55,693 bases of DNA, taken from IMG/VR virus record IMGVR_UViG_3300022696_000140, positions 1 to 55,693 of that record, one strand, 5' to 3'. This DNA comes from a virus. Made by a program: the position numbers and the translations under genes. Below, piece after piece: positions 5,292-26,317 of the stretch; positions within the stretch are counted from its first letter, which is position 1, and the number at the start of each line of letters is the position of its first letter. A model generated the notes under the pieces. That model made no database searches, was not told where the DNA came from, and saw only the letters and a program-made list of their open reading frames with translations.

Positions 5292-5308
5292 ATTTTAACA
5301 CAAAAAAA

Positions 5309-5382
5309 CACCTCGTGATAGACTCGAACTATCAACCCTCAGAGTAGAAATCTGATGCTCTATCCAATTGAGCTAACGAGGC
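5309..5382 (-). tRNA. tRNA-Arg (anticodon TCT)
   Basis: Cloverleaf: acceptor GCCTCGT/ACGAGGT (a G-T closing pair), anticodon stem TCAGA/TCTGA with loop TTTCTAC giving anticodon TCT, T-arm GATAG/CTATC with TTCGAGT loop. CCA is not encoded. It reads AGA, the common Arg codon in this AT-rich genome. Confidence 0.95.
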
Positions 5383-5399
5383 AATGATTAAAAATAAAA

Positions 5400-5477
5400 T
5401 GGTCTGGAAGGTTGGATTTGAACCAACGTACTCTCGGCCCCAAACCGAGCGACTCAACCTGGCTGGCCTACTCCCAG
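5400..5477 (-). tRNA. tRNA-Pro (anticodon TGG)
   Basis: Acceptor CTGGGAG/CTTCCAG (one G-T pair), anticodon stem CTCGG/CCGAG with loop TTTGGGG giving anticodon TGG, T-arm GTTGG/CCAAC, encoded CCA. The D-stem appears to be only three pairs. Its 5' part overlaps the stop end of a 50-aa gene. Confidence 0.93.
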
Positions 5478-5606
5478 ATATTCTTCAAGAATCTCATTAC
5501 ATAGTTGATTAAGAGTAATGTCTTTTTCATGTGCCATCACTGCCAACTTGAAAAACTCTTCATTTGTTAAACAAATCTCAACATCTATAAAATTTTTTTC
5601 ATCCAT
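5454..5606 (-). CDS. Small protein of 50 aa between tRNAs, overlapping tRNA-Pro
   Basis: Start at MDEKNFIDVEI with AGGAAG 8 nt upstream; a longer frame reaching into tRNA-Gln is rejected. Predicted helical (EEFFKLAVMAHEKDITLNQL), resembling ribbon-helix-helix-sized proteins such as antitoxins or Arc-like regulators. The last eight codons and the TGA lie inside the 5' half of tRNA-Pro. A DNA-binding role is only a guess. Confidence 0.6.
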   Translation of the reverse strand: MDEKNFIDVEICLTNEEFFKLAVMAHEKDITLNQLCNEILEEYLGVGQPG

Positions 5607-5620
5607 ATAAAACTTCCTAT

Positions 5621-5697
5621 TGGCTGAAGTAGGGGGACTCGAACCCCCAACACTCAGATTCAAAATCTGATGCTCTAACCATTTGAGCTATACTCCA
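5621..5697 (-). tRNA. tRNA-Gln (anticodon TTG)
   Basis: Acceptor TGGAGTA/TACTTCA with the U1-A72 pair characteristic of tRNA-Gln, anticodon stem TCAGA/TCTGA with loop TTTTGAA giving TTG, T-arm GGGGG/CCCCC, encoded CCA. Confidence 0.95.
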
Positions 5698-5709
5698 TCT
5701 ATTATGTTT

Positions 5710-5737
5710 TTAAAAAGATGCGGAAATTAATCCGCAA
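5710..5737 (-). terminator. Intrinsic terminator after the 246-aa virion-like gene
   Basis: Minus-strand stem TGCGGA/TCCGCA with a 6-nt loop, followed by TCTTTTT. It lies 5 nt past the stop of the upstream gene and separates it from the tRNA genes. Confidence 0.75.
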
Positions 5738-5741
5738 TAAT

Positions 5742-6482
5742 TTAAAATGGTAAAATAACTCTCAATCTTTCATTGTCAACAACTCTAATTTCAAAAGTTG
5801 TAAAGTTTGATAGATTTGTTACTTCAACTCTATCCTCTTCTGAAGGGAAGTACCAATCTCCACAATCTGAAGTGTTTTTAAATGCTAAAATAATTTCACA
5901 TTCACCATTCACAAAATCCGCTCTAATAGGAAATCTATCAATATTAGTTTGAACAGGAATCAAAACATTATTTGTTATGTTAGTGTCAACTCCACTCTGA
6001 TCAGGAGTTAAAACTTGAAGTGTTAACATAACAGCGTCACAAATTTGAGACCAATCAGATGAACCTTGAGTTGGGGTATCTGTAGTGCTTGTTTCAATAA
6101 CTTCCCAAATTTTATTATTTCTAAAAACTTTATCACCTTGAACATATGTTCCTTCTGACCAATTAGAAACATCCTGTAAAATCAAATCTGCCGGTGCATT
6201 AGCTCTTAGTCCGGCAATACTTTTAGAAACAGAGAGCCATCTCTTGTTATCTTCAACTGAGAAATCTAACCCAGTAATATCATCATTAGTCCACACCAAT
6301 TCATACTCATCGCCGTTTTGGATTCGCACCTCTTCAGCACTTGTTGCTGTATAATAACTAATACCATTAAGATCACCGTTAGCATAATTGTTTGCAAATG
6401 CTTGCAATAAACCATCAGTAATTTCACTACTTCTTATTTCTACTACATTTTTATCTACCACCGTTGCTACAAGACTTAACAT
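5742..6482 (-). CDS. Virion-associated-like protein with inserted carbohydrate-binding-like module
   Basis: Start set at MLSLVATVVDK, directly after GGAGGAG; the frame is open further upstream. About 246 aa. Residues ~57-100 (EYELVWTNDDI..LDFSVEDNKRWL) and the end align with the 188-aa protein encoded at 48451-49017 in the rightward structural block, so the two are paralogues. Between the shared halves this copy has an extra segment (residues ~110-153) of the form W-S-x-G-T-Y-V-x-G-D-x-V-x-x-N-N-K-I-W-E, ending P-x-x-G-x-x-x-W, like chitin/cellulose-binding modules of the CBM5/12 type. Surface or fibre role inferred. Confidence 0.65.
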   Translation of the reverse strand: MLSLVATVVDKNVVEIRSSEITDGLLQAFANNYANGDLNGISYYTATSAEEVRIQNGDEYELVWTNDDITGLDFSVEDNKRWLSVSKSIAGLRANAPADLILQDVSNWSEGTYVQGDKVFRNNKIWEVIETSTTDTPTQGSSDWSQICDAVMLTLQVLTPDQSGVDTNITNNVLIPVQTNIDRFPIRADFVNGECEIILAFKNTSDCGDWYFPSEEDRVEVTNLSNFTTFEIRVVDNERLRVILPF

Positions 6483-6727
6483 TGTTCTCCTCCATTTTTC
6501 TTCCAATATTTATATTCTCTTCGTGTTATTTGTTGAGAATTAATAATTGAAAATTCTAAATCATCTGATGATTCTCTTAACTCTAACAAAAAAGATACAG
6601 GGCTTTGTTTAACACAGACTGTTTTAAGAAGTGCTGGTTTGATCGTATTAGGATTTTTTTTCTGACTTGCATATGTAATAAGAAAATAACTTCCAAAACT
6701 CAATCTCAATTTTTGAATTTTTGCCAT
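6476..6727 (-). CDS. Hypothetical protein, 83 aa
   Basis: Begins MAKIQKLRLSFGSYF, with GGAGG upstream. It ends 7 nt inside the next gene, and its last codons form that gene's ribosome site, so the two are coupled. A TATAAATA late core lies ~32 nt upstream. Probably a small virion or assembly protein by context; no recognised domain. Confidence 0.65.
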   Translation of the reverse strand: MAKIQKLRLSFGSYFLITYASQKKNPNTIKPALLKTVCVKQSPVSFLLELRESSDDLEFSIINSQQITRREYKYWKKNGGEQC

Positions 6728-6758
6728 TCTTTACCTCCATTTAATGAATGTTCATTCA

Positions 6759-6766
6759 TATTTATA
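6759..6766 (-). promoter_or_regulatory. T4-type late promoter core before the 83-aa gene
   Basis: TATAAATA on the minus strand, followed by a 16-base inverted repeat (ATGAATGTTCATTCAT) in the leader and GGAGG before the ATG. It drives the two-gene unit ending at the terminator near 5710. Confidence 0.65.
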
Positions 6767-6779
6767 ATATTTACACAAA

Positions 6780-6863
6780 TACTCATGGTGGGACTCGAAC
6801 CCACAAGAACTATTGTTCACTGGATTTTAAGTCCAGAGCGTTTACCAATTTCGCCACATGAGC
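6780..6863 (-). tRNA. tRNA-Leu (anticodon TAA)
   Basis: Class II tRNA with a long variable arm. Acceptor GCTCATG/CATGAGT, anticodon stem CTGGA/TCCAG with loop CTTAAAA giving TAA, T-arm TGGG/CCCA with TTCGAGT. CCA not encoded. It reads TTA. Confidence 0.95.
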
Positions 6864-6869
6864 AATTTA

Positions 6870-12594: not shown

Positions 12595-13302
12595 TTAAAT
12601 TTCTTCCTTTTTTGATGGCCTGCCTTTAGGTTTTTTATTTTTAGACATAATATCTTTAGTTATCAATTCCACCTGATTTTCCAATGCTTGTTTAGTTTTA
12701 TTGTTAATAACTTTATAATCCCATTTATCATAATCATCAAGAGCAGTTTCAGATTCGTGTTGATTTTCAATAGATTCTCTCTCAATATATCTTTCAATTC
12801 TTATTTTGTATACATCATACTCAGAACTTGAAAATGCATCTATTTCATTAGGAAATCTAACATCAGTTATTATTATAACATCAGCATCACTATTATTTAT
12901 ATTTTCTTTCAATTTATCTACCCAATAAGAATCACTAACTCTTTTTCTCATTATATTGGTTCCATAAGTCTGCAACAAAGTTCTGGTAATTAAATTCTTA
13001 TCTTCATACCAATTATCATCATTAACCTCAATATCCTTCAATTTATTATTTAATTTAATAAAAGAATCTCTTCTCAATATCTCAAAATTGGCTTGAATTA
13101 AACTTTTTAACTCATTAGAAAATTGGTTTAATGCTTCTATAAAATAAGAAAAATCTTCATTACAATTTTTTTTCAATTCTTTAGCAAAGTATTCATATAT
13201 CGCAGTTTTCTTGTTTTTCTCAAAACATTCTATCATATAATCAGAAAAAGAGTTTTTTCCAGATTGTAATTTACCACTAACCAAAATAACAGTTTTTTTC
13301 AT
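12595..13302 (-). CDS. Deoxynucleoside monophosphate kinase-like protein (T4 gp1 type)
   Basis: P-loop G-K-L-Q-S-G-K-N-S-F (residues ~9-18), a mid-region R-T-L-L-Q-T-Y-G-T-N-I-M-R, and I-I-I-T-D-V-R-F-P-N-E-I, as in phage dNMP kinases, which phosphorylate dNMPs for replication. 235 aa, near the 241 aa of T4 gp1. ATG chosen 5 nt after AGGAG and overlapping the upstream stop (TGATG); a GTG one codon earlier is possible. The Lys-rich tail is atypical. Confidence 0.75.
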   Translation of the reverse strand: MKKTVILVSGKLQSGKNSFSDYMIECFEKNKKTAIYEYFAKELKKNCNEDFSYFIEALNQFSNELKSLIQANFEILRRDSFIKLNNKLKDIEVNDDNWYEDKNLITRTLLQTYGTNIMRKRVSDSYWVDKLKENINNSDADVIIITDVRFPNEIDAFSSSEYDVYKIRIERYIERESIENQHESETALDDYDKWDYKVINNKTKQALENQVELITKDIMSKNKKPKGRPSKKEEI

Positions 13303-13547
13303 CACATCTCCTCATCAAAAAAATTTCCTTTATTAACAATCATAGTTTTAATTTCAACATAAGAATCTTTATTTTTAGCATAAACCTCATATCTACAAGG
13401 ATCATTAGTTTTTTTTATAATAAGAGGATAATTCTCTTTCATTGTTATAGATGTTGCGCTACACTCAACAACACAATTCTGAGGAAAATTATTTCTTAAA
13501 GAGTTTTCCGTTAACCAAATATTAGCAACTTTCTCTACTCTTCCCAT
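13302..13547 (-). CDS. Hypothetical protein, 81 aa
   Basis: No recognised domain; contains two Cys near residues 25-29 and one near 51. It overlaps both neighbours by 1-13 nt, indicating coupled translation with the dNMP-kinase-like gene. Confidence 0.6.
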   Translation of the reverse strand: MGRVEKVANIWLTENSLRNNFPQNCVVECSATSITMKENYPLIIKKTNDPCRYEVYAKNKDSYVEIKTMIVNKGNFFDEEM

Positions 13548-15951: not shown

Positions 15952-16806
15952 TTAAACACTCACAGGATAAGAAATAAAAGAATCGTGTTCATAATCTACT
16001 AACTCAATATCTTTATATTTCCATTCAAATATATTTTTAAAATTTTTAATATAAAGATTTGGTAATTTTTTAGGAGTTCTTTTCAATTGGACATTCTTGA
16101 CTTTATCTAATTGATTTTTATATATATGCACATTGGATAAAAACCCAGTCAAACATCCTTCTTTATATCCAGTTTCTTGACACAATAGTTTTAATAGTAA
16201 AGCATATTGAGCAATGTTAAATGGTAGTCCAATAGGAACATCAACACTTCTCTGATACCATGTTAAATTCAATCTATTACCAATAATATCAACTTTCCAT
16301 AAAACATGGCAGGGGGGTAAAGCCATATGATCTAATGCTAAAGGATTCCAAGAACTACACAAAAGTCTTCTATTGTTAGGATCAGATCGAATTTTATCTA
16401 TAATAAATTTCAATTGATCGACCTTAGTTGAATTTTCGACATTCGGATCACTAAAACCTCTCCACTGGACACCATAAATTTCACCCAAATCATTTTCTTT
16501 TTTCATATCTTGTAGAGTTTTTAGGTTTGTTCCATATTTAACTTTTTTAGGATTAGCCCAATTATCCCATATATGACAATCTCTGTCATGTAGAAATTTT
16601 TTATTGCCAACACCTTTAATAAACATTTCAAGTTCAGCGGACACCTTATAAATATTTATCTTTTTAGTTGTTAACAATGGAAAACCATTTTTCATATCGT
16701 GCTTAAACATTGTGGATGGTATTGTTAGACAATCTTCACCAGTCCTGGTAGAAACCCAATTCCCATTGTCGATAACATCCTGTAAAATATTCAAATATCC
16801 AATCAT
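15952..16806 (-). CDS. thyA: Thymidylate synthase (ThyA)
   Basis: 284 aa. Catalytic Cys in A-L-P-P-C-H-V-L-W (residues ~161-169), Y-Q-R-S-V-D-V-P-I-G-L-P-F-N-I-A (~184-199), Y-G-V-Q-W-R-G-F (~110-117) and V-H-I-Y (~227-230). The Asn of F-N-I-A, which selects dUMP over dCMP, is retained, so this makes dTMP rather than hydroxymethyl-dCMP. It supplies thymine nucleotides for an AT-rich genome together with the ribonucleotide reductase. Confidence 0.95.
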   Translation of the reverse strand: MIGYLNILQDVIDNGNWVSTRTGEDCLTIPSTMFKHDMKNGFPLLTTKKINIYKVSAELEMFIKGVGNKKFLHDRDCHIWDNWANPKKVKYGTNLKTLQDMKKENDLGEIYGVQWRGFSDPNVENSTKVDQLKFIIDKIRSDPNNRRLLCSSWNPLALDHMALPPCHVLWKVDIIGNRLNLTWYQRSVDVPIGLPFNIAQYALLLKLLCQETGYKEGCLTGFLSNVHIYKNQLDKVKNVQLKRTPKKLPNLYIKNFKNIFEWKYKDIELVDYEHDSFISYPVSV

Positions 16807-16810
16807 AATA

Positions 16811-17050
16811 TTATTTTTCTCTTTCTTCTATTTCTATCCGTTTTAATATACCATACCACTCAGAGGATGGTGCTTTAAATCCCAAAGAAGTTAAATGATG
16901 ATCATTCTTTAAAATAGCAATCGCAATGGCCCTATATGATGGCGCAAAATTTAAATCTTCTATTCTAATAGGAACTTCATCTGGAATATCTTCTGGATAG
17001 CCTTTATCCTTCCAGTTATTTATGTATTCTTCTATCTTTTTTTTAACCAT
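16811..17050 (-). CDS. Small protein sharing the IbrA C-terminal motif, 79 aa
   Basis: The segment P-S-Y-R-A-I-A-I-A-I-L-K-N-D-H-H-L (residues ~37-53) resembles W-K-R-L-A-I-T-I-L-K-N-D-H-V-C near the end of the PP-loop protein at 18342-19661. It looks like a free-standing copy of that C-terminal module. It sits at the distal end of the Ibr-like operon. Confidence 0.65.
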   Translation of the reverse strand: MVKKKIEEYINNWKDKGYPEDIPDEVPIRIEDLNFAPSYRAIAIAILKNDHHLTSLGFKAPSSEWYGILKRIEIEEREK

Positions 17051-17430
17051 TCAACCAACCTCTCAAGTGCTAAATTATCCGCTTTTTGTTGATTTTCTAA
17101 AGACAGTAGTTTAAATCCATGTCTAAATATTGAAGGTATTTTCATATCATAACACACTGATGCCTGACCAATCCATGCAATTCTATTAATAGAGGGATTT
17201 GTTAAAAACTGTTCGCATGAATATGGCCAATTATCAAAAACGTTATTAATATTATCATTAAACCTTTTTAAATCTTCTAAAAAGAAACAATACTCTAAAA
17301 CACAATCATCTTTATCTAAATTTTTAGGGGGAACGGTATCAAAAAAACCATATTTAACACACTCCCACTTTTCCCAATGGTGATATATTCTTTCGACTTT
17401 AGGTATTTTTAATTTTTTGTTCATACTCAT
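17032..17430 (-). CDS. Ibr-module associated protein, 132 aa
   Basis: Opens with K-I-P-K-V-E-R-I-Y-H-H-W-E-K-W-E-C, then W-P-Y-S-C-E-Q-F-L-T-N-x-x-I-N-R-I-A-W-I-G-Q-A (residues ~68-90) and F-R-H-G-F. From memory this combination accompanies DUF3440/ParB genes in phages. No catalytic motif identified. It overlaps IbrB upstream and the 79-aa gene downstream, so all three are made together. Confidence 0.65.
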   Translation of the reverse strand: MSMNKKLKIPKVERIYHHWEKWECVKYGFFDTVPPKNLDKDDCVLEYCFFLEDLKRFNDNINNVFDNWPYSCEQFLTNPSINRIAWIGQASVCYDMKIPSIFRHGFKLLSLENQQKADNLALERLVEWLKKR

Positions 17431-17956
17431 CTATATCAAAATCCTCATCGACTTCCCAAGATTCAGAAAACGATTTATTCTCAAAAAGACTTGCAACTCC
17501 AGTTATTTGCTTTAAACGAAGTAATTCATCTTTAGACATTCCAATATGTTTACATATCCAAGCATCACCCTTCCCCATTTCTACTAATTCAGAAACTATG
17601 CTAGACATAAGATCGACATTGTGAGAGCCTCTTGCTCTATTATGTCTAATTGTAGATGCCATTCTATCACTAATATCTTTTTCAATAACAACAACAGGCA
17701 ACATACCATTTTCTCTATCATATATTCTTTTACTATTTTTAATAGTTAAATATCTATGAAAACCATCAACAACAATATACAAATCTTGATCGGAATCATA
17801 AAAAGTCACGACTGGTTGAGTATAACCATCTTCCCATATAGAAACTTCTAACAATTCCATTTCTGGTGGTGCCACAGAATTTGGGTTATAATCATTAGCT
17901 TTAACTTTTTCAATAGGAACTGCAATAACATTATACACTGGAGATTTGAATGACAT
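17399..17956 (-). CDS. ibrB: ParB-like nuclease-domain protein (IbrB-like)
   Basis: 185 aa. ParB/sulfiredoxin-fold N-terminus: N-D-Y-N-P-N (residues ~21-26), V-V-D-G-F-H-R-Y (~62-69) and R-H-N-R-A-R-G-S-H (~104-112), followed by a helix-turn-helix-like region (C-K-H-I-G-M-S-K-D-E-L-L-R-L). This is the partner of IbrA-type proteins, known in E. coli as activators of eib genes. The biochemical role is unresolved. Adjacent to the EctC-like gene. Confidence 0.8.
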   Translation of the reverse strand: MSFKSPVYNVIAVPIEKVKANDYNPNSVAPPEMELLEVSIWEDGYTQPVVTFYDSDQDLYIVVDGFHRYLTIKNSKRIYDRENGMLPVVVIEKDISDRMASTIRHNRARGSHNVDLMSSIVSELVEMGKGDAWICKHIGMSKDELLRLKQITGVASLFENKSFSESWEVDEDFDIDEYEQKIKNT

Positions 17957-17961
17957 ACCAA

Positions 17962-18345
17962 TTACCTTTCATAAGAACCATCAGTAGAATGAACTTCTCT
18001 ACCTTTAAGTGGTGGATTAAAAACACATATCAATATAGTTTCTTCTAAAGCCAAAAAACTATGTGCATCATTATCATCTAAAATATATATAAAATCTTTT
18101 TCTATAATAAACTGTTCTTTCGTTTTTTCATTTGTGACAATACCCCTTCCTGAAATACAATAACAAGATTCTAAATGATTCTTATAGTGCCAAAAATATG
18201 GCCCACCTTTATTAACAATGGTTTTTGTTAATGTATACCCCATAGAATCGCTTTCTAATAAAATTCTTAATGAAATAAAATTATTTTTAGGACAAATAAC
18301 TTCTCTTTCAGTATTTTTCAAATCATCTACTTTCACAACTTTCAT
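17962..18345 (-). CDS. Ectoine synthase-like cupin (EctC family)
   Basis: 127 aa, full length for EctC (~130). Conserved blocks: N-F-I-S-L-R-I-L-L (residues ~22-30), W-H-Y-K-N-H-L-E-S-C-Y-C-I-S-G (~52-66), I-Y-I-L-D-D-N-D-A-H (~86-95) and C-V-F-N-P-P-L-K-G-R-E-V-H (~107-119). The Glu, Tyr and His that bind iron in characterised EctC enzymes appear conserved. EctC closes N-gamma-acetyl-diaminobutyrate to ectoine. No EctA or EctB is in the window, so it acts on a host intermediate or a different substrate. Its ATG overlaps the IbrA stop (ATGA). Confidence 0.85.
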   Translation of the reverse strand: MKVVKVDDLKNTEREVICPKNNFISLRILLESDSMGYTLTKTIVNKGGPYFWHYKNHLESCYCISGRGIVTNEKTKEQFIIEKDFIYILDDNDAHSFLALEETILICVFNPPLKGREVHSTDGSYER

Positions 18346-19661
18346 TTTTTTCTACCTTTAATGTCTATTTTTTTATACTTTTCTTGAATATATCTCTGCC
18401 TCTCCATTTGTTTTTTTGTAGGAGCCAACCCAAGATATTTACAAACATGATCGTTTTTTAAAATAGTAATAGCTAATCTTTTCCAAGAAGCAACATCAGA
18501 ATTATGACAGGATAAAAAATCTAAATGATCTGGATAATGTGGTAATTTTACTAAATCCATATTCTTATTCCCATGTGCAGTTTTTCCTCCTATTTTAAAA
18601 TAAACACCATACTCTTTTAGTTCATTTATTGTTTTTTGGGGCAATCCGCGACCCACTCTACCCCAAACAATGATAGACTGAATGAATCGAATTTTAAAAT
18701 TTTCAGAAACCTCTTTCGGTAAAGTATTTAATAAAAATTTAGTAAAACTTTTCCATGTATGATTAGGCGGCAATTTGAAACTTCTATAATTTAACTGTTT
18801 TCCATATGTAGCAATAAAATTAGCACCACCAACTCTAGCACAAAGTTTAGCCCAAACGTTAGGGTCTATCACTCTATACAATCCTAATGAAGATTTAGAT
18901 TCACTCATAAAAGGAGAAGCCACTCTCATTTGATGTATAGACAATCCAGCTTTATAAAAAATATCATACAATTTATTATAATCCCATTCAAATTTAGCAT
19001 TAGCAATCCAAACGTCTTCTGTTTTCCAATCGTATATTGGGTAGCAATTATACACATAATCAGTGTTCTTTTTAGTCCACATATGACCACCATGAACTGT
19101 TTTACGTGTGTTCATAATAGACCTAAATCTATTTAAAGATTCCGCAGTTCTAATACCAATCAAACACGCCGTTTCTTTTCCTTGAGAATACCAATCACCA
19201 AACTTATCCCAAAATTCATCATAATTCATATTTTCTTTAAAAAAGTCGAAATTGTGATTTTTTAAATTAACAACATATTCTTCTTTTGGCATAGGTCTAA
19301 TCCACTTATCTTTATCATCCTCACCCCAACATTGCCAATCTACAGAATAAGAACTAATAGTACATGGTAATGTTATAGGCAAACAACACCAATAAACATC
19401 TAATAAATCTAAATTATCTTTAATTATTTTATGCATAAAATTTAAAGAATGTTCATAATTTGCTTCATTATCTAATGTCATCAACCCTATTTTTTTTGTT
19501 ATATTATTTTTTCTCATATAATCTAAAACCAAATTCAACATAACTCCACTATCTTTACCCCCAGAAAAAGATAGATATATTCTTTCAAAATTATTGAATA
19601 TATATTCTACTCTTTCAATGGATGCTACATATACATTTTTATTTTTATTGTATTTTCTCAT
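18342..19661 (-). CDS. ibrA: PP-loop phosphoadenosine-phosphosulfate-reductase-like protein (IbrA-like, DUF3440)
   Basis: 439 aa. PP-loop S-F-S-G-G-K-D-S-G (residues ~31-39) of N-type ATP pyrophosphatases. Then G-I-R-T-A-E-S-L-N-R-F (~165-175), Y-N-C-Y-P-I-Y-D-W-K-T-E-D-V-W (~204-218), and the DUF3440 extension with a C-terminal I-L-K-N-D-H motif. Related enzymes activate substrates by adenylation; PAPS reductase and DndC are better-known relatives. Good GGAG before the ATG. Heads the five-gene Ibr-like operon. Confidence 0.85.
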   Translation of the reverse strand: MRKYNKNKNVYVASIERVEYIFNNFERIYLSFSGGKDSGVMLNLVLDYMRKNNITKKIGLMTLDNEANYEHSLNFMHKIIKDNLDLLDVYWCCLPITLPCTISSYSVDWQCWGEDDKDKWIRPMPKEEYVVNLKNHNFDFFKENMNYDEFWDKFGDWYSQGKETACLIGIRTAESLNRFRSIMNTRKTVHGGHMWTKKNTDYVYNCYPIYDWKTEDVWIANAKFEWDYNKLYDIFYKAGLSIHQMRVASPFMSESKSSLGLYRVIDPNVWAKLCARVGGANFIATYGKQLNYRSFKLPPNHTWKSFTKFLLNTLPKEVSENFKIRFIQSIIVWGRVGRGLPQKTINELKEYGVYFKIGGKTAHGNKNMDLVKLPHYPDHLDFLSCHNSDVASWKRLAITILKNDHVCKYLGLAPTKKQMERQRYIQEKYKKIDIKGRKK

Positions 19662-21933: not shown

Positions 21934-22950
21934 TCAAAAAAACTGTTTTTTGTTTCTTTTATTATAATATTTTTCTATTGATTTAGCAACAGCACAAATA
22001 ACTTGAGGATTAACTGATCGAGCCAATCTTTCATATTTTTGTTTCCACGCACCAACTAATATAAAATCGTCTGGGAATCCCATCAACCTCTTAACTTCTT
22101 TTATTGTATGTCTTCTTTTTTCAAAAGGATGACATATACCACGAGCTGAAACATCAGATTCTGTTTGAACTAATGTACGACTCGGAAGATCCCATCTATT
22201 TTTTCCAAAATTGAATGCTTTATAATGATTTTCTCCAACATTTACAGAATCATAAAATTCGTATGCTTTGTATTTATTGGCGGCTTCAAATAAAAATTTT
22301 AATTCATCTGGATCATTTTTTATATTTTCAATAGCATCTTTAACAGATATTTTTTCTGAACTATATGTCGGGTTAGGATATGTAAAAGACCTATATAACA
22401 AATCATTTCGAACAGAAACAAAAATAACTCTTTCTCTATTTTGTGGAGCACCGAAATCAGTACCATTCAAAATTTTATAAAAACAAGTATAACCAATTTT
22501 CATAAATTGATGAACTATTTCATTTAAAACTTTTTTTGATTCGCCAATAGTTAACCCCTTAACATTTTCATTGACACAAAATTTCGGTCTTATCTGATCA
22601 GCCAATCTTATAAATTCAAAAAACAAATCATCAACTCTTTGCTTCTTGCTAGAATATGCTTTTACTTTGTTCCAGCCTTTTTCTCTTATGCCACTCATAG
22701 AAAAAGATGCACAAGGAGGACTACCGTCTAATATATCTAATTCACCAACATTCAAATTTAACTCTTTTAAAATATCCTCACCACACACATTTCTAACATC
22801 ATCAAAAAAAACTTTTGCATCTGGAAAATTTTTTTTATAACAATCGACAGCATTTTCTATAAATTCTACACAAGCCAGAACATCCATTCCAGCCATCTTA
22901 TAACCTAAGCTAGATCCACCACATCCAGAAAATGTACTAACAACTTTCAT
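21934..22950 (-). CDS. Cytosine-C5 DNA methyltransferase with altered motif X
   Basis: 338 aa from MKVVSTFSGCGG, whose ATG overlaps the CmoA-like stop (ATGA). Motif I F-S-G-C-G-G-S-S; IV G-S-P-P-C-A-S-F with the catalytic Cys; VI E-N-V; VIII Q-N-R-E-R-V; IX/target region R-H-T-I-K-E-V-K-R-L-M-G-F-P. The expected motif X Q-x-G-N-[AS]-V is L-A-R-S-V-N-P (residues ~314-320): the near-invariant Gly-Asn is Ala-Arg (Arg codon CGA at 22018-22020). All catalytic residues are intact, so the enzyme should be active, possibly with a non-standard cofactor. No restriction partner nearby. Confidence 0.93.
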   Translation of the reverse strand: MKVVSTFSGCGGSSLGYKMAGMDVLACVEFIENAVDCYKKNFPDAKVFFDDVRNVCGEDILKELNLNVGELDILDGSPPCASFSMSGIREKGWNKVKAYSSKKQRVDDLFFEFIRLADQIRPKFCVNENVKGLTIGESKKVLNEIVHQFMKIGYTCFYKILNGTDFGAPQNRERVIFVSVRNDLLYRSFTYPNPTYSSEKISVKDAIENIKNDPDELKFLFEAANKYKAYEFYDSVNVGENHYKAFNFGKNRWDLPSRTLVQTESDVSARGICHPFEKRRHTIKEVKRLMGFPDDFILVGAWKQKYERLARSVNPQVICAVAKSIEKYYNKRNKKQFF

Positions 22951-23609
22951 TTTATACATAAAATCCCTACAAATTTTTGAGATTGCCAAAAAGTAGTTAC
23001 TTTTGAAAATCCAACATTTTTACACAATTCAATATTTTCTTCCAATGACATTTTTTTCATCATGTGAATTAGTTGATTATCTTTTTCAAAAATCTCTTCC
23101 AAACTAAAATTTTTTCTTTTATGATTATATATACTATTCTGCATTATAAAATCTAACTCAGAAAAATAATCAACCTTTTCACTAAAAACAAAACACCCCT
23201 TATTGTTTAACCATTTATATATTTTTTCAATTAATATCTTCCTTTTATTTAATGGAATGAAAACTAATGTAAAAAGAGAATAGACAAAAGAACAATTATC
23301 AAATTCCATGTTTAATATATCATCATTCAAAAAATTTATATTTTCATAATTTTTATAATATTTCTCAAAGGATTTTTCTATCTCAATTGCATAATAAGAA
23401 ACGTTTTTTTTAAAAACTGACATGTCTAAATAAATATCATTTAACATTTTTCCTGTAGAACTACCAATATCAACAACATTAGTATAATCATCAATAAAAT
23501 ATTTTGATATATCTTTAACATCCTGACACAATGAATCATAGTCTCTAATTGAATTAAAAATATGCTCATCAAATTCATTAGCCATATTTTTAAAAGAAAA
23601 AGTTTTCAT
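22947..23609 (-). CDS. CmoA-like SAM-dependent enzyme (possible carboxy-SAM synthase)
   Basis: 220 aa class I SAM fold: V-V-D-I-G-S-S-T-G-K (residues ~46-55), Y-A-I-E-I-E (~73-78), N-D-D-I-L (~95-99). The second half follows E. coli CmoA closely in order: F-T-L-V-F-I-P at NFTLQFLEP, K-I-Y-K-W-L-N at KIYQGLN, C-F-V-F-S-E-K at ALVLSEK, H-K-R-K-N-F at FKRANGY. CmoA makes carboxy-S-adenosylmethionine from SAM and prephenate. In my hand alignment the column of CmoA Arg199, which contacts the carboxylate, holds Asp, so the product is uncertain. Translationally coupled to the DNA methyltransferase. Confidence 0.75.
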   Translation of the reverse strand: MKTFSFKNMANEFDEHIFNSIRDYDSLCQDVKDISKYFIDDYTNVVDIGSSTGKMLNDIYLDMSVFKKNVSYYAIEIEKSFEKYYKNYENINFLNDDILNMEFDNCSFVYSLFTLVFIPLNKRKILIEKIYKWLNNKGCFVFSEKVDYFSELDFIMQNSIYNHKRKNFSLEEIFEKDNQLIHMMKKMSLEENIELCKNVGFSKVTTFWQSQKFVGILCIK

Positions 23610-24436: not shown

Positions 24437-26317
24437 TCAAATAATTTCACAAGCCCCGCCACCACACGCAACTTCTCCCTTTAAATCTGTATTGTCTTTA
24501 TCTTCAGATACTTTAGTTAAATCTATTTTTCTTGCAAACTTTGAAAGTTCGTTATATTTACTTTCATCAATTTCTTCAAATGGTGCTTGAACATATGTGC
24601 CACCATCATGAGGCAACACTGAAATACCGTTATAGAAATCTCTATTGTTCCACATCCACTCACCGACTTCATCCCATTCATCATCTTTTAAATTAACAGT
24701 ACAACTAACATTATGTGTGTTGTGTCCAGAAACATGAGAAGGACTGATCCAATCTTTATGAAAACGTTTGACTCTTTCAAGTAAGTCTAACGATCTCTCA
24801 GTTCTAAATATAGCAGAATCGCTATTCACTTTAATAGGAATAGAAACTACTCCCTGAGTGTATGGTTTGTGAAAATCATCTTCAACTAAATTAGGAATAG
24901 CTTTTTTAAGATAATTATAAATTGCTTCATCCTTGCCAAATCTCATTCTACGAACATAATAAGGAGAATGCCACGAATGAATACCAGAAGAAGTTCCTAA
25001 CACAAGAGAACCACTACCTTCAGGTTTAATTGTTCCTATTCTCTTTGCTGGATTGATATTAATAATGTTAGCAACTCTTTCATTTTCTTCGATAGATAAT
25101 TTTGAAGATTCTTTAATATCGAATTCTAAAATTTTACCTGAAGCAATTCCTGTCATAGAAACACCTAACAATGCTTCATTTTCAGCGTTTTCTTGCCATT
25201 CTGGTCTCAAATAATGAAAATCTGTATAGCTTGCTTGAATGGTTCCTATCAGTGTAGCAGCTTTAACTCTTTTGTTAAGTTCTTCTTGGCTATCAATATC
25301 CGAAACATTAATACTTGTTAGATTACAAAATCCCATCGGTCTAAGAGAAATTTCAGCACATGGATTTGTTCCAGCATCTTTATCATTACTTAAATACAAT
25401 CCAGGCTCACCAGAACCAGAAGCCCTAACTCTATCCCAAAGAAATTTAAAATCTTTATTCTTTATTCTATGTCTAAGCATAAAGACTGAATTGTTGGCTC
25501 TTCCTCTTTGTGGGTTAAGTTCCCACCAATTACCAAATTTACATTCCATCATTTCATGATCATTAAAACTAAAGAGAGAAATTAATGCTGATCTACGAAT
25601 ACCACCAGATAAAACAGCATCTGCTAAATGACAACAAATATCATGAACTTCAATTGGTTTTATACTACACCCAAAACCCCTTTCAGATATTGCTAAGTCT
25701 AAAACCTTTTTTACATTATGCAAAGCATCTTTTAATGGTTGAGCGCCAGGAGCAATACCACCAGCTGTTTTGAGAGGAGTTCCAGCAGGTCTAATATCAC
25801 TAAAATCAAATTTCGGCATTGGTTTATTGAAAAAATATGCCTTCATTAAAACTTTAACAGCATCAGACCATCCAATTATTGAATCCTCAATTAAAAATTT
25901 TCTTGTTCTTTTTGATGGGCCGAGAAGTGTAGGAAGTTTTTGTACATGATGAAACTGTACAGAATAACCAACACCACATCCACACATCAATAGAAACATC
26001 ACCTCATGAAAAGCCTCCCATGAGTCTATTGGTAGATATGAACAATTGTATTGTCTCGCATGATTCAACTCAACAGCTCTACCAGCAAATTGACAAGAAC
26101 GCATTGATGGCAAAACTTTTTTATCTCTAACAAAATTGAATGCTTCTTTTATTTCATTTTTAAATTCAGAATTTAAATCTTTATATTTTTTTAAATGCAT
26201 ATTCTCTATTCTGTCAACAATCTCATTCCATGTTTCTCTTCTACCTAAGTCACTTCTATATTTAGCATATTTTGAATATACAGTTAAGTCTGATAAAATT
26301 TTAATAGAATTGTCCAC
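24437..26317 (-). CDS. nrdJ: Adenosylcobalamin-dependent ribonucleotide reductase (class II, monomeric RTPR-like)
   Basis: 626 aa. Substrate-site Cys in Q-Y-N-C-S-Y (~89-94), L-L-M-C-G-C-G-V-G-Y-S-V (~108-119), active-site N-P-C-A-E-I-S-L (~314-321) with F-C-N-L-T-S-I-N downstream, and a C-terminal shuttle C-G-G-G-A-C-E. No beta-subunit gene is present, as expected for the B12 class. T4 uses the class I NrdAB pair instead. GTG start, preceded by GGAGG; the upstream 39-aa ORF stop overlaps it by 1 nt (TAGTG). Confidence 0.9.
   Translation of the reverse strand: MDNSIKILSDLTVYSKYAKYRSDLGRRETWNEIVDRIENMHLKKYKDLNSEFKNEIKEAFNFVRDKKVLPSMRSCQFAGRAVELNHARQYNCSYLPIDSWEAFHEVMFLLMCGCGVGYSVQFHHVQKLPTLLGPSKRTRKFLIEDSIIGWSDAVKVLMKAYFFNKPMPKFDFSDIRPAGTPLKTAGGIAPGAQPLKDALHNVKKVLDLAISERGFGCSIKPIEVHDICCHLADAVLSGGIRRSALISLFSFNDHEMMECKFGNWWELNPQRGRANNSVFMLRHRIKNKDFKFLWDRVRASGSGEPGLYLSNDKDAGTNPCAEISLRPMGFCNLTSINVSDIDSQEELNKRVKAATLIGTIQASYTDFHYLRPEWQENAENEALLGVSMTGIASGKILEFDIKESSKLSIEENERVANIININPAKRIGTIKPEGSGSLVLGTSSGIHSWHSPYYVRRMRFGKDEAIYNYLKKAIPNLVEDDFHKPYTQGVVSIPIKVNSDSAIFRTERSLDLLERVKRFHKDWISPSHVSGHNTHNVSCTVNLKDDEWDEVGEWMWNNRDFYNGISVLPHDGGTYVQAPFEEIDESKYNELSKFARKIDLTKVSEDKDNTDLKGEVACGGGACEII

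Follow-up and report, generated by a model that had tools for sequence, protein, structure and literature searches.

Ectoine synthases (EctC), of which SaEctC (5bxx) and PlEctC (5onm-o) have been solved, are one of the described systems closest to the gene examined here; their product, ectoine, protects bacteria against salt. A deep tunnel with a conserved lid leads down to the active site of EctC (PMC6344544). Trp-21, Ser-23, Thr-40, and Tyr-52 as well as the metal ligands are described as substrate or metal residues in SaEctC and PlEctC, and exchange of Trp-21 for Ala left 26% of the activity in SaEctC and 9.7% in PlEctC (PMC4795551, PMC6344544). In ectoine research, solitary EctC proteins are presented as an open question, and one of them, from P. 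syringae, was able to complement an ectC mutant of H. elongata (PMC5924519).

The other close system is the IbrA/IbrB (YbdN/YbdM) pair of phages and enterobacteria. Annotations describe IbrAB as co-activating the expression of prophage genes, as is reported for the E. coli proteins, and the paper on the eib genes is titled in the same sense. We found no molecular function for IbrA/IbrB in the open-access literature searched, and no IbrAB system for which a modified nucleotide, a product, or an activity is given. ParB-superfamily proteins, namely DndB and DpdB, are reported as partners of DNA-modifying systems (PMC10853773, PMC12839542). ParB-fold proteins are described as NTP-binding switches that bind CTP, ATP, or GTP and occur in fusions with many domains; the main text of that study contains none of the words cupin, ectoine, or PAPS (PMC12704722).

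The combination of EctC and ParB is already known from GenBank product names, in which Gaia gp104 and a protein of phage XCL1123 are annotated as an "ectoine synthase/ParB multidomain protein," that is, as a domain combination. Cysteine dioxygenases are cupins. In the M. abscessus prophage prophiGD21-3, gp20, with cysteine-dioxygenase motifs, is reported to be paired with the PAPS-reductase-like gp23 (PMC8092301), which by analogy may be a cousin arrangement to the one described below. In the open-access literature, to which the search was confined (most subscription papers and all preprints lie outside it), we recognized no description of this cassette, which is no proof that it is unpublished.

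The window, by which we mean the whole stretch of DNA analyzed, is a 55.7-kb linear viral record and a fragment of a T4-like phage, with genes for a gp20-type portal, gp32, UvsW, a clamp-loader ATPase with a gp44 lid domain, a DnaB-type helicase, and a family B polymerase. The EctC gene in this window is not a stray gene but a member of a five-gene cassette, IbrA-EctC-ParB-X132-X79, arranged as an operon as follows.

18342 to 19661, minus strand: IbrA-type protein, 439 aa, with a PP-loop (PAPS-reductase-like) domain carrying SGGKDS and a DUF3440 domain (PF11922, E = 1e-57; PF01507, E = 6e-11; phrog_2302, E = 3e-110)
17962 to 18345, minus strand: EctC-family cupin, 127 aa, ATG start (PF06339, E = 2e-40; solved EctC structures; iron ligands)
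17399 to 17956, minus strand: ParB-like protein (IbrB type), 185 aa (phrog_2159, E = 6e-80; PF02195, E = 0.0019, below the gathering cutoff)
17032 to 17430, minus strand: X132, helical protein, 132 aa, overlapping the end of the ParB gene (conserved in cassette loci; model with pLDDT of 96.6)
16811 to 17050, minus strand: X79, small protein, 79 aa, overlapping the end of X132 (PF11922 positions 137 to 175, E = 4e-5, just below the cutoff)

The start of the EctC gene overlaps the stop of the PAPS_reduct and DUF3440 gene by 4 nt (ATGA), and the plus strand at the EctC position is interrupted by stops. The first-pass annotation had read the protein as a full-length EctC match that keeps the Glu, Tyr, and His ligands, and this holds. 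Residues 1 to 126 of 127 align with positions 1 to 124 of 127 of the Pfam Ectoine_synth profile (PF06339) at 138 bits (cutoff, 27), the NCBIfam ectoine synthase model NF009806 gives 136.6 bits (cutoff, 128), and the closest PDB sequences are the solved EctCs 5bxx/5by5 and 5onm-o, with E values of about 2e-20. The metal (iron) ligands are E59, Y87, and H95. EctA and EctB models gave no match in the window record, a linear fragment of 55.7 kb.

The cassette IbrA and the adjacent ParB protein belong to the families of the IbrA/IbrB pair. The SGGKDS motif is invariant across the IbrA alignment, save for one Gly in a single locus (L225). Residues 4 to 266 of the predicted IbrA structure match the fold of PAPS/APS reductases and FAD synthase (Z, 13 to 15), with weaker fold matches of the predicted N-terminal domain to NcsA, TilS, and LarE (Z, 9 to 11). 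IbrA scored 15.9 bits against the CysH/PAPS reductase model TIGR00434 (cutoff, 165.1) and 21.8 bits against PRK02090 (cutoff, 154). The DUF3440 part of the model is of low confidence in places and was barely probed by the fold search, so that an assignment of DUF3440 function by fold was abandoned. When the five cassette proteins were scanned with PADLOC, IbrA alone matched, and to DndC only (E = 5e-9); against the curated DndC model TIGR03183 it scored 23.9 bits (cutoff, 290.4). The cassette thus shares with Dnd phosphorothioation (DndC, DndB) and with Dpd (DpdB) a PP-loop enzyme with some DndC likeness and a ParB-superfamily partner, but the DndC similarity is weak, the other four proteins have no PADLOC match, and an EctC cupin is included.

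X132 has no match in Pfam, PHROG, or NCBIfam. An assignment of its function by fold was likewise given up, since the model is confident yet without a convincing match in the PDB (best Foldseek E value, 1.1; best VIA Z, 3.1). A search of BFVD returned a single match at E < 0.001, an unnamed viral protein that is probably a homologue. X79 looks like a stand-alone copy of the C-terminal end of DUF3440 (window positions 16811 to 17050 compared with 18345 to 18500), and in one locus (L219) it precedes IbrA in a single fused protein.

We examined the linkage of EctC to these partners with two scans of viral contigs. The scan centered on EctC found at least 80 loci; among the 80 listed, IbrA was present in 77, ParB in 79, X132 in 79, a separate X79 in 75, and all five parts in 73. 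These counts are no census of EctC loci, because the scans favor close relatives of the window and the 80 EctC-centered loci are a lower bound. The scan centered on IbrA, with independent ascertainment, found 68 loci, although the two scans share contigs and include near-copies. Where IbrA was at least 63% identical to that of the window, EctC was present in 58 of 59 loci, and the exception is cut at the contig end right after IbrA; an X132 homologue was likewise present in 58/59 of these close loci. In contrast, where IbrA was at most 45% identical, EctC was found in 0/9 loci, ParB in 9/9, and X132 and X79 in 4/9. ParB occurred in 67 of the 68 loci overall. This split indicates that EctC belongs to, and has stayed with, one IbrA subfamily. 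The IbrA-ParB system as a whole is wider, and X132 and X79 are found in part of it. All 12 loci lacking some part were checked, and 10 of them are truncated by a contig end just where the missing part would lie. The other two are the locus with the X79-IbrA fusion (L219) and a locus in which IbrA is absent from the 5 kb upstream and the contig is cut downstream (L074). The latter is compatible with a rotated gene order, which is unproven, and is the least certain of the incomplete loci.

The same linkage was found in a tblastn search of 50,697 phage records. EctC was present in five, namely, Pseudoalteromonas phage XCL1123, Mycobacterium phages Gaia (two records) and Nebkiss, and a gut record. 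In XCL1123, Gaia, and Nebkiss, a PAPS-reductase-like gene is followed directly by EctC and then by ParB, with EctC fused to ParB in Gaia and Nebkiss. The GenBank entries for Gaia and XCL1123 describe no system and list the X132 and X79 genes as hypothetical proteins. The gut phage record (MT835761, locus L003) has EctB-EctC, a canonical ect fragment, and was rejected as a cassette. IbrA was found in 215 phage records and ParB in 218, and the 4/215 records in which IbrA exceeds 60% identity are exactly the four with a cassette-type EctC. The isolate Microcystis phage Mwe-JY13 has IbrA-like, ParB, and X132 genes and no EctC match.

These scans bear on what the first-pass annotation had proposed, namely, that EctC functions within an Ibr-type module rather than as a free-standing osmolyte gene. 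The linkage supports that proposal. A survey for EctC beside DUF3440 and ParB genes in viral contigs, which it had suggested, returned the EctC-centered loci above, and loss of EctC from relatives that keep the operon, which it had named as evidence to the contrary, was the opposite of what was found. The absence of EctA and EctB that it had noted also extends beyond the window: both were found in 0/30 module-bearing records, 3 of which are whole records of isolated phages, while most of the others may be fragments.

Ordinary IbrA/IbrB pairs differ from the cassette in lacking EctC and, in several cases, X132 and X79, and some have an SNF2-like helicase gene upstream instead. A related gene of this type lies directly upstream of EctC-less IbrA-ParB pairs in one streptococcal phage, one flavobacterial phage, and two viral contigs (L237:1797-3029, L240:1200-2420, L223:2781-3998, and L226:2802-3974). 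In Microbacterium phage Hendrix (L242:595-4143), an IbrA-like gene lies among abutting genes annotated as glucosyltransferase, methyltransferase, and N-acyltransferase, a row that looks like a DNA-hypermodification cluster.

Within the cassette, gene order is variable. Six orders occur among 57 nonredundant module rows with all four large parts, and at least nine changes of order are required on the EctC tree (59 nonredundant module rows), while the parts remain together. Most orders are cyclic rotations of IbrA-EctC-ParB-X132-X79 (L173, L178, L005, L166, L174, L180, and others), and two loci deviate (L169 and L220). The rotated orders look as if they had spread by tandem duplication and loss or via circles. 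In 17 of the 59 module rows EctC and ParB form one fused protein and in 42 they are separate, a state that changed at least six times on the EctC tree.

Blind clustering of the open reading frames of 65 loci placed each of the cassette families in 61 to 65 loci; the most frequent family besides them occurred in 8. No conserved amino or acetyl donor partner (EctA/EctB-like, GNAT, or aminotransferase) was found by this clustering. Among 150 neighbors, drawn at random from 183 genes after exclusion of proteins shorter than 100 aa, longer than 900 aa, or containing X, the Pfam matches were mostly to replication and recombination proteins (DnaB, PDDEXK, ERF, NinG, YqaJ, DNA polymerase A, DnaA, and Toprim), and no Pfam family exceeded 6/150. 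A rearranged cassette of accessory genes in unrelated phages would also suit a role in counter-defense, in which the cassette would chemically alter a host immune signal, nucleotide, or protein rather than the phage genome. The PP-loop and ParB families are known in defense systems (PMC12839542, PMC10853773), but we found no link to a particular defense, the PADLOC scan of the five proteins giving the match of IbrA to DndC only. We regard this role as distinctly unlikely.

To place the cassette EctCs among other members of the family, 226 EctC domains were classed, and removal of those that were shorter than 105 aa or identical left 197, comprising 113 module, 60 ect-operon, and 24 solitary EctCs. 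The ect and solitary sets consist mostly of the sequences nearest to phage EctC. Solitary here means that EctB, IbrA, ParB, and X132 are all absent from the fetched stretch; one of these (L233) does have a gene annotated as ectA alongside. In a tree of 121 of the 197 domains, which is unrooted and based on few columns, a branch with 100/100 support separates all 59 module EctCs from the remainder, which includes the solitary bacterial EctCs. From a scan of 84,980 species genomes, the 80 nearest EctCs among a larger number of matches were kept; 57 were found with EctB, 2 with IbrA and ParB, and 21 with neither. The two linked to IbrA and ParB are on contigs binned with Saprospiraceae and Planctomycetota, and these contigs are possibly viral. 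The solitary bacterial EctCs resemble the cassette EctCs in having no ectB neighbor, in Cys at position 61 (15/24), and in the absence of Trp (11/24), but they have no IbrA or ParB nearby (24 loci), an acidic position 41 (24/24), and no Trp at position 52. A solitary EctC of Mycetohabitans (L234:4001-4387) adjoins a nonribosomal peptide synthetase gene, a hint that EctC chemistry is employed outside ectoine making.

The catalytic core of the cassette EctCs is kept, whereas the surrounding substrate shell is altered. Among the 113 unique module EctCs, the ligands E59 and Y87 are present in all and H95 in 112, the one exception having Met in place of the His ligand (L184). S25, R27, T42, Y54, E117, and H119 are kept in 113/113, the substrate contacts Ser-23, Arg-25, Thr-40, Tyr-52, and Phe-106/107 are retained, and the conserved lid residues are present. 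At position 23 (Trp-21 in SaEctC), by contrast, the module EctCs have Phe, Gly, or Met, with Trp in 0/113 compared with 58/60 ect-operon EctCs. Position 41, just before Thr-40, is Lys or Arg in 107/113 compared with 0/60 in the ect-operon set, where it is acidic or aliphatic; position 52 is Trp in 100/113 compared with 0/60, where it is aliphatic; and position 61 is Cys in 113/113 compared with Val in 60/60. Two further changes are Leu to Phe in 112/113 and Arg to Glu in 84/113 (Arg in 55/60 ect-operon EctCs). At position 40 (Asn-38 of PlEctC, a substrate contact), the His that is common in ect-operon EctCs occurs in 26/113. A kept core with an altered shell is the pattern expected for a new substrate with retained chemistry, although it derives from a single divergence and cannot be assessed as repeated convergence. 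From these residues, the cassette EctC is probably adapted to a substrate other than the ectoine precursor; the first-pass annotation had considered a nucleic acid or nucleotide precursor.

These changes bear directly on osmoprotection, in which the phage EctC would finish ectoine from host N-gamma-acetyl-diaminobutyrate and so raise host ectoine during infection. The family match, the retained catalytic core, and the complementation by the solitary P. syringae EctC all suit such a role, and a 2026 virome paper interprets viral ectoine synthase as osmotic help (PMC13079714). However, EctC tracks the IbrA subfamily (58/59 versus 0/9) and not EctA or EctB (0/30 records), the substrate-stacking Trp is gone in every module EctC, the cassette EctCs lie apart from ect-operon EctCs in the tree, and repeated fusion to ParB is hard to square with an osmolyte enzyme. 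On linkage, clade, and pocket changes, we rejected ectoine production as the main reading and consider it very improbable. Because two marks that define ectoine synthases, Trp-21 and the ectAB context, are absent, the cassette EctC, despite its full-length homology with ectoine synthase and the shared iron ligands, core, and C-terminal lid, is not filed here as ectoine synthase by function.

The fusion of EctC to ParB fits with regulation, in which IbrA and ParB would co-activate phage or host transcription and EctC, instead of being an enzyme, would sense a ligand or act as an allosteric subunit. The annotation of E. coli IbrAB as co-activators points in the same direction, as does the description of ParB-fold proteins as NTP-binding switches (PMC12704722). 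The metal and most core catalytic residues are, however, kept in at least 112 of the 113 module EctCs, which is beyond the need of a pure sensor, and the matched neighbors of the module are mostly replication and recombination genes. A regulatory role is unlikely in our judgment.

The analysis establishes the family of the gene, its operon, its obligate linkage to the cassette, the fusion to ParB, the placement in a single clade, and the kept core within an altered shell, as well as the absence of EctA and EctB from the records searched. On this basis we favor, as a tentative reading that is quite possible but short of probable, that EctC, as an obligate part of a self-contained phage cassette, acts as a catalytically competent cyclase with a changed substrate, within an ATP-dependent modification module whose likeliest target is nucleic acid. 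EctC would carry out the dehydrative ring closure of a small amide-bearing amino compound by cyclic-amidine chemistry as in ectoine formation. IbrA, of the PP-loop ATP pyrophosphatase type, would adenylate the target at a carbonyl or phosphate and then couple the group to it, the ParB-fold NTPase would carry the complex to the target, most likely phage nucleic acid, and X132 and X79 may serve as adaptor subunits. Hypermodification of phage DNA (or RNA) would then confer resistance to host nucleases or label phage transcripts. Because the conserved genes of the cassette include no donor enzyme for an amino or acetyl group, the small substrate would need to come from the host.

In favor of this reading are, beside the linkage, the single clade, and the kept core with its altered shell, that the nearest defense model of IbrA is DndC, that ParB-like ATPases are partners of DNA-modifying systems (PMC12839542, PMC10853773), and that the matched neighbors are mostly DNA replication and recombination genes. 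Several observations count against it. The literature search yielded neither a modified nucleotide nor any other product or activity for an IbrAB system, and the effect published for IbrAB is to co-activate the prophage eib genes. No amino or acetyl donor belongs to the conserved parts. The deep tunnel with its kept lid suits a small free molecule better than a base that is part of DNA. Position 40 is His in 26/113 module EctCs, and the His ligand is Met in one. The most specific form of the proposal, a new hypermodification of nucleic acid in which an EctC-type cupin would supply or finish a cyclic-amidine (ectoine-like) group and a ParB-guided DndC/TilS-like PP-loop enzyme would place it on phage DNA or RNA, is speculative and rather doubtful.

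Whatever its product, the cassette affects how such genes are interpreted. Reading viral cassette EctC genes as salt-stress helpers is likely wrong, and the neighbors of viral "ectoine synthase" genes should be inspected before these are counted as osmotic-stress auxiliary metabolic genes. Such counting occurs in at least one virome paper of 2026 (PMC13079714), for whose genes no kinship with the cassette is implied. The cassette joins the questions of solitary EctC and of IbrA/IbrB, and phages Gaia and Nebkiss, which infect the laboratory strain Mycobacterium smegmatis mc2 155, offer a tractable test case.

The window also has a gene for a C5-cytosine DNA methylase and another that is methyltransferase-like. 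It further encodes a thymidylate synthase, a protein like ribonucleotide reductase in which there is a B12-type insertion, a protein like deoxynucleotide kinases, and tRNAs.

21934 to 22989, 22947 to 23609, 15952 to 16806, 24437 to 26317, and 12595 to 13305: methylase and nucleotide-metabolism genes, as a set
5308 to 6864, minus strand: four tRNA genes, Arg(tct), Pro(tgg), Gln(ttg), and Leu(taa)
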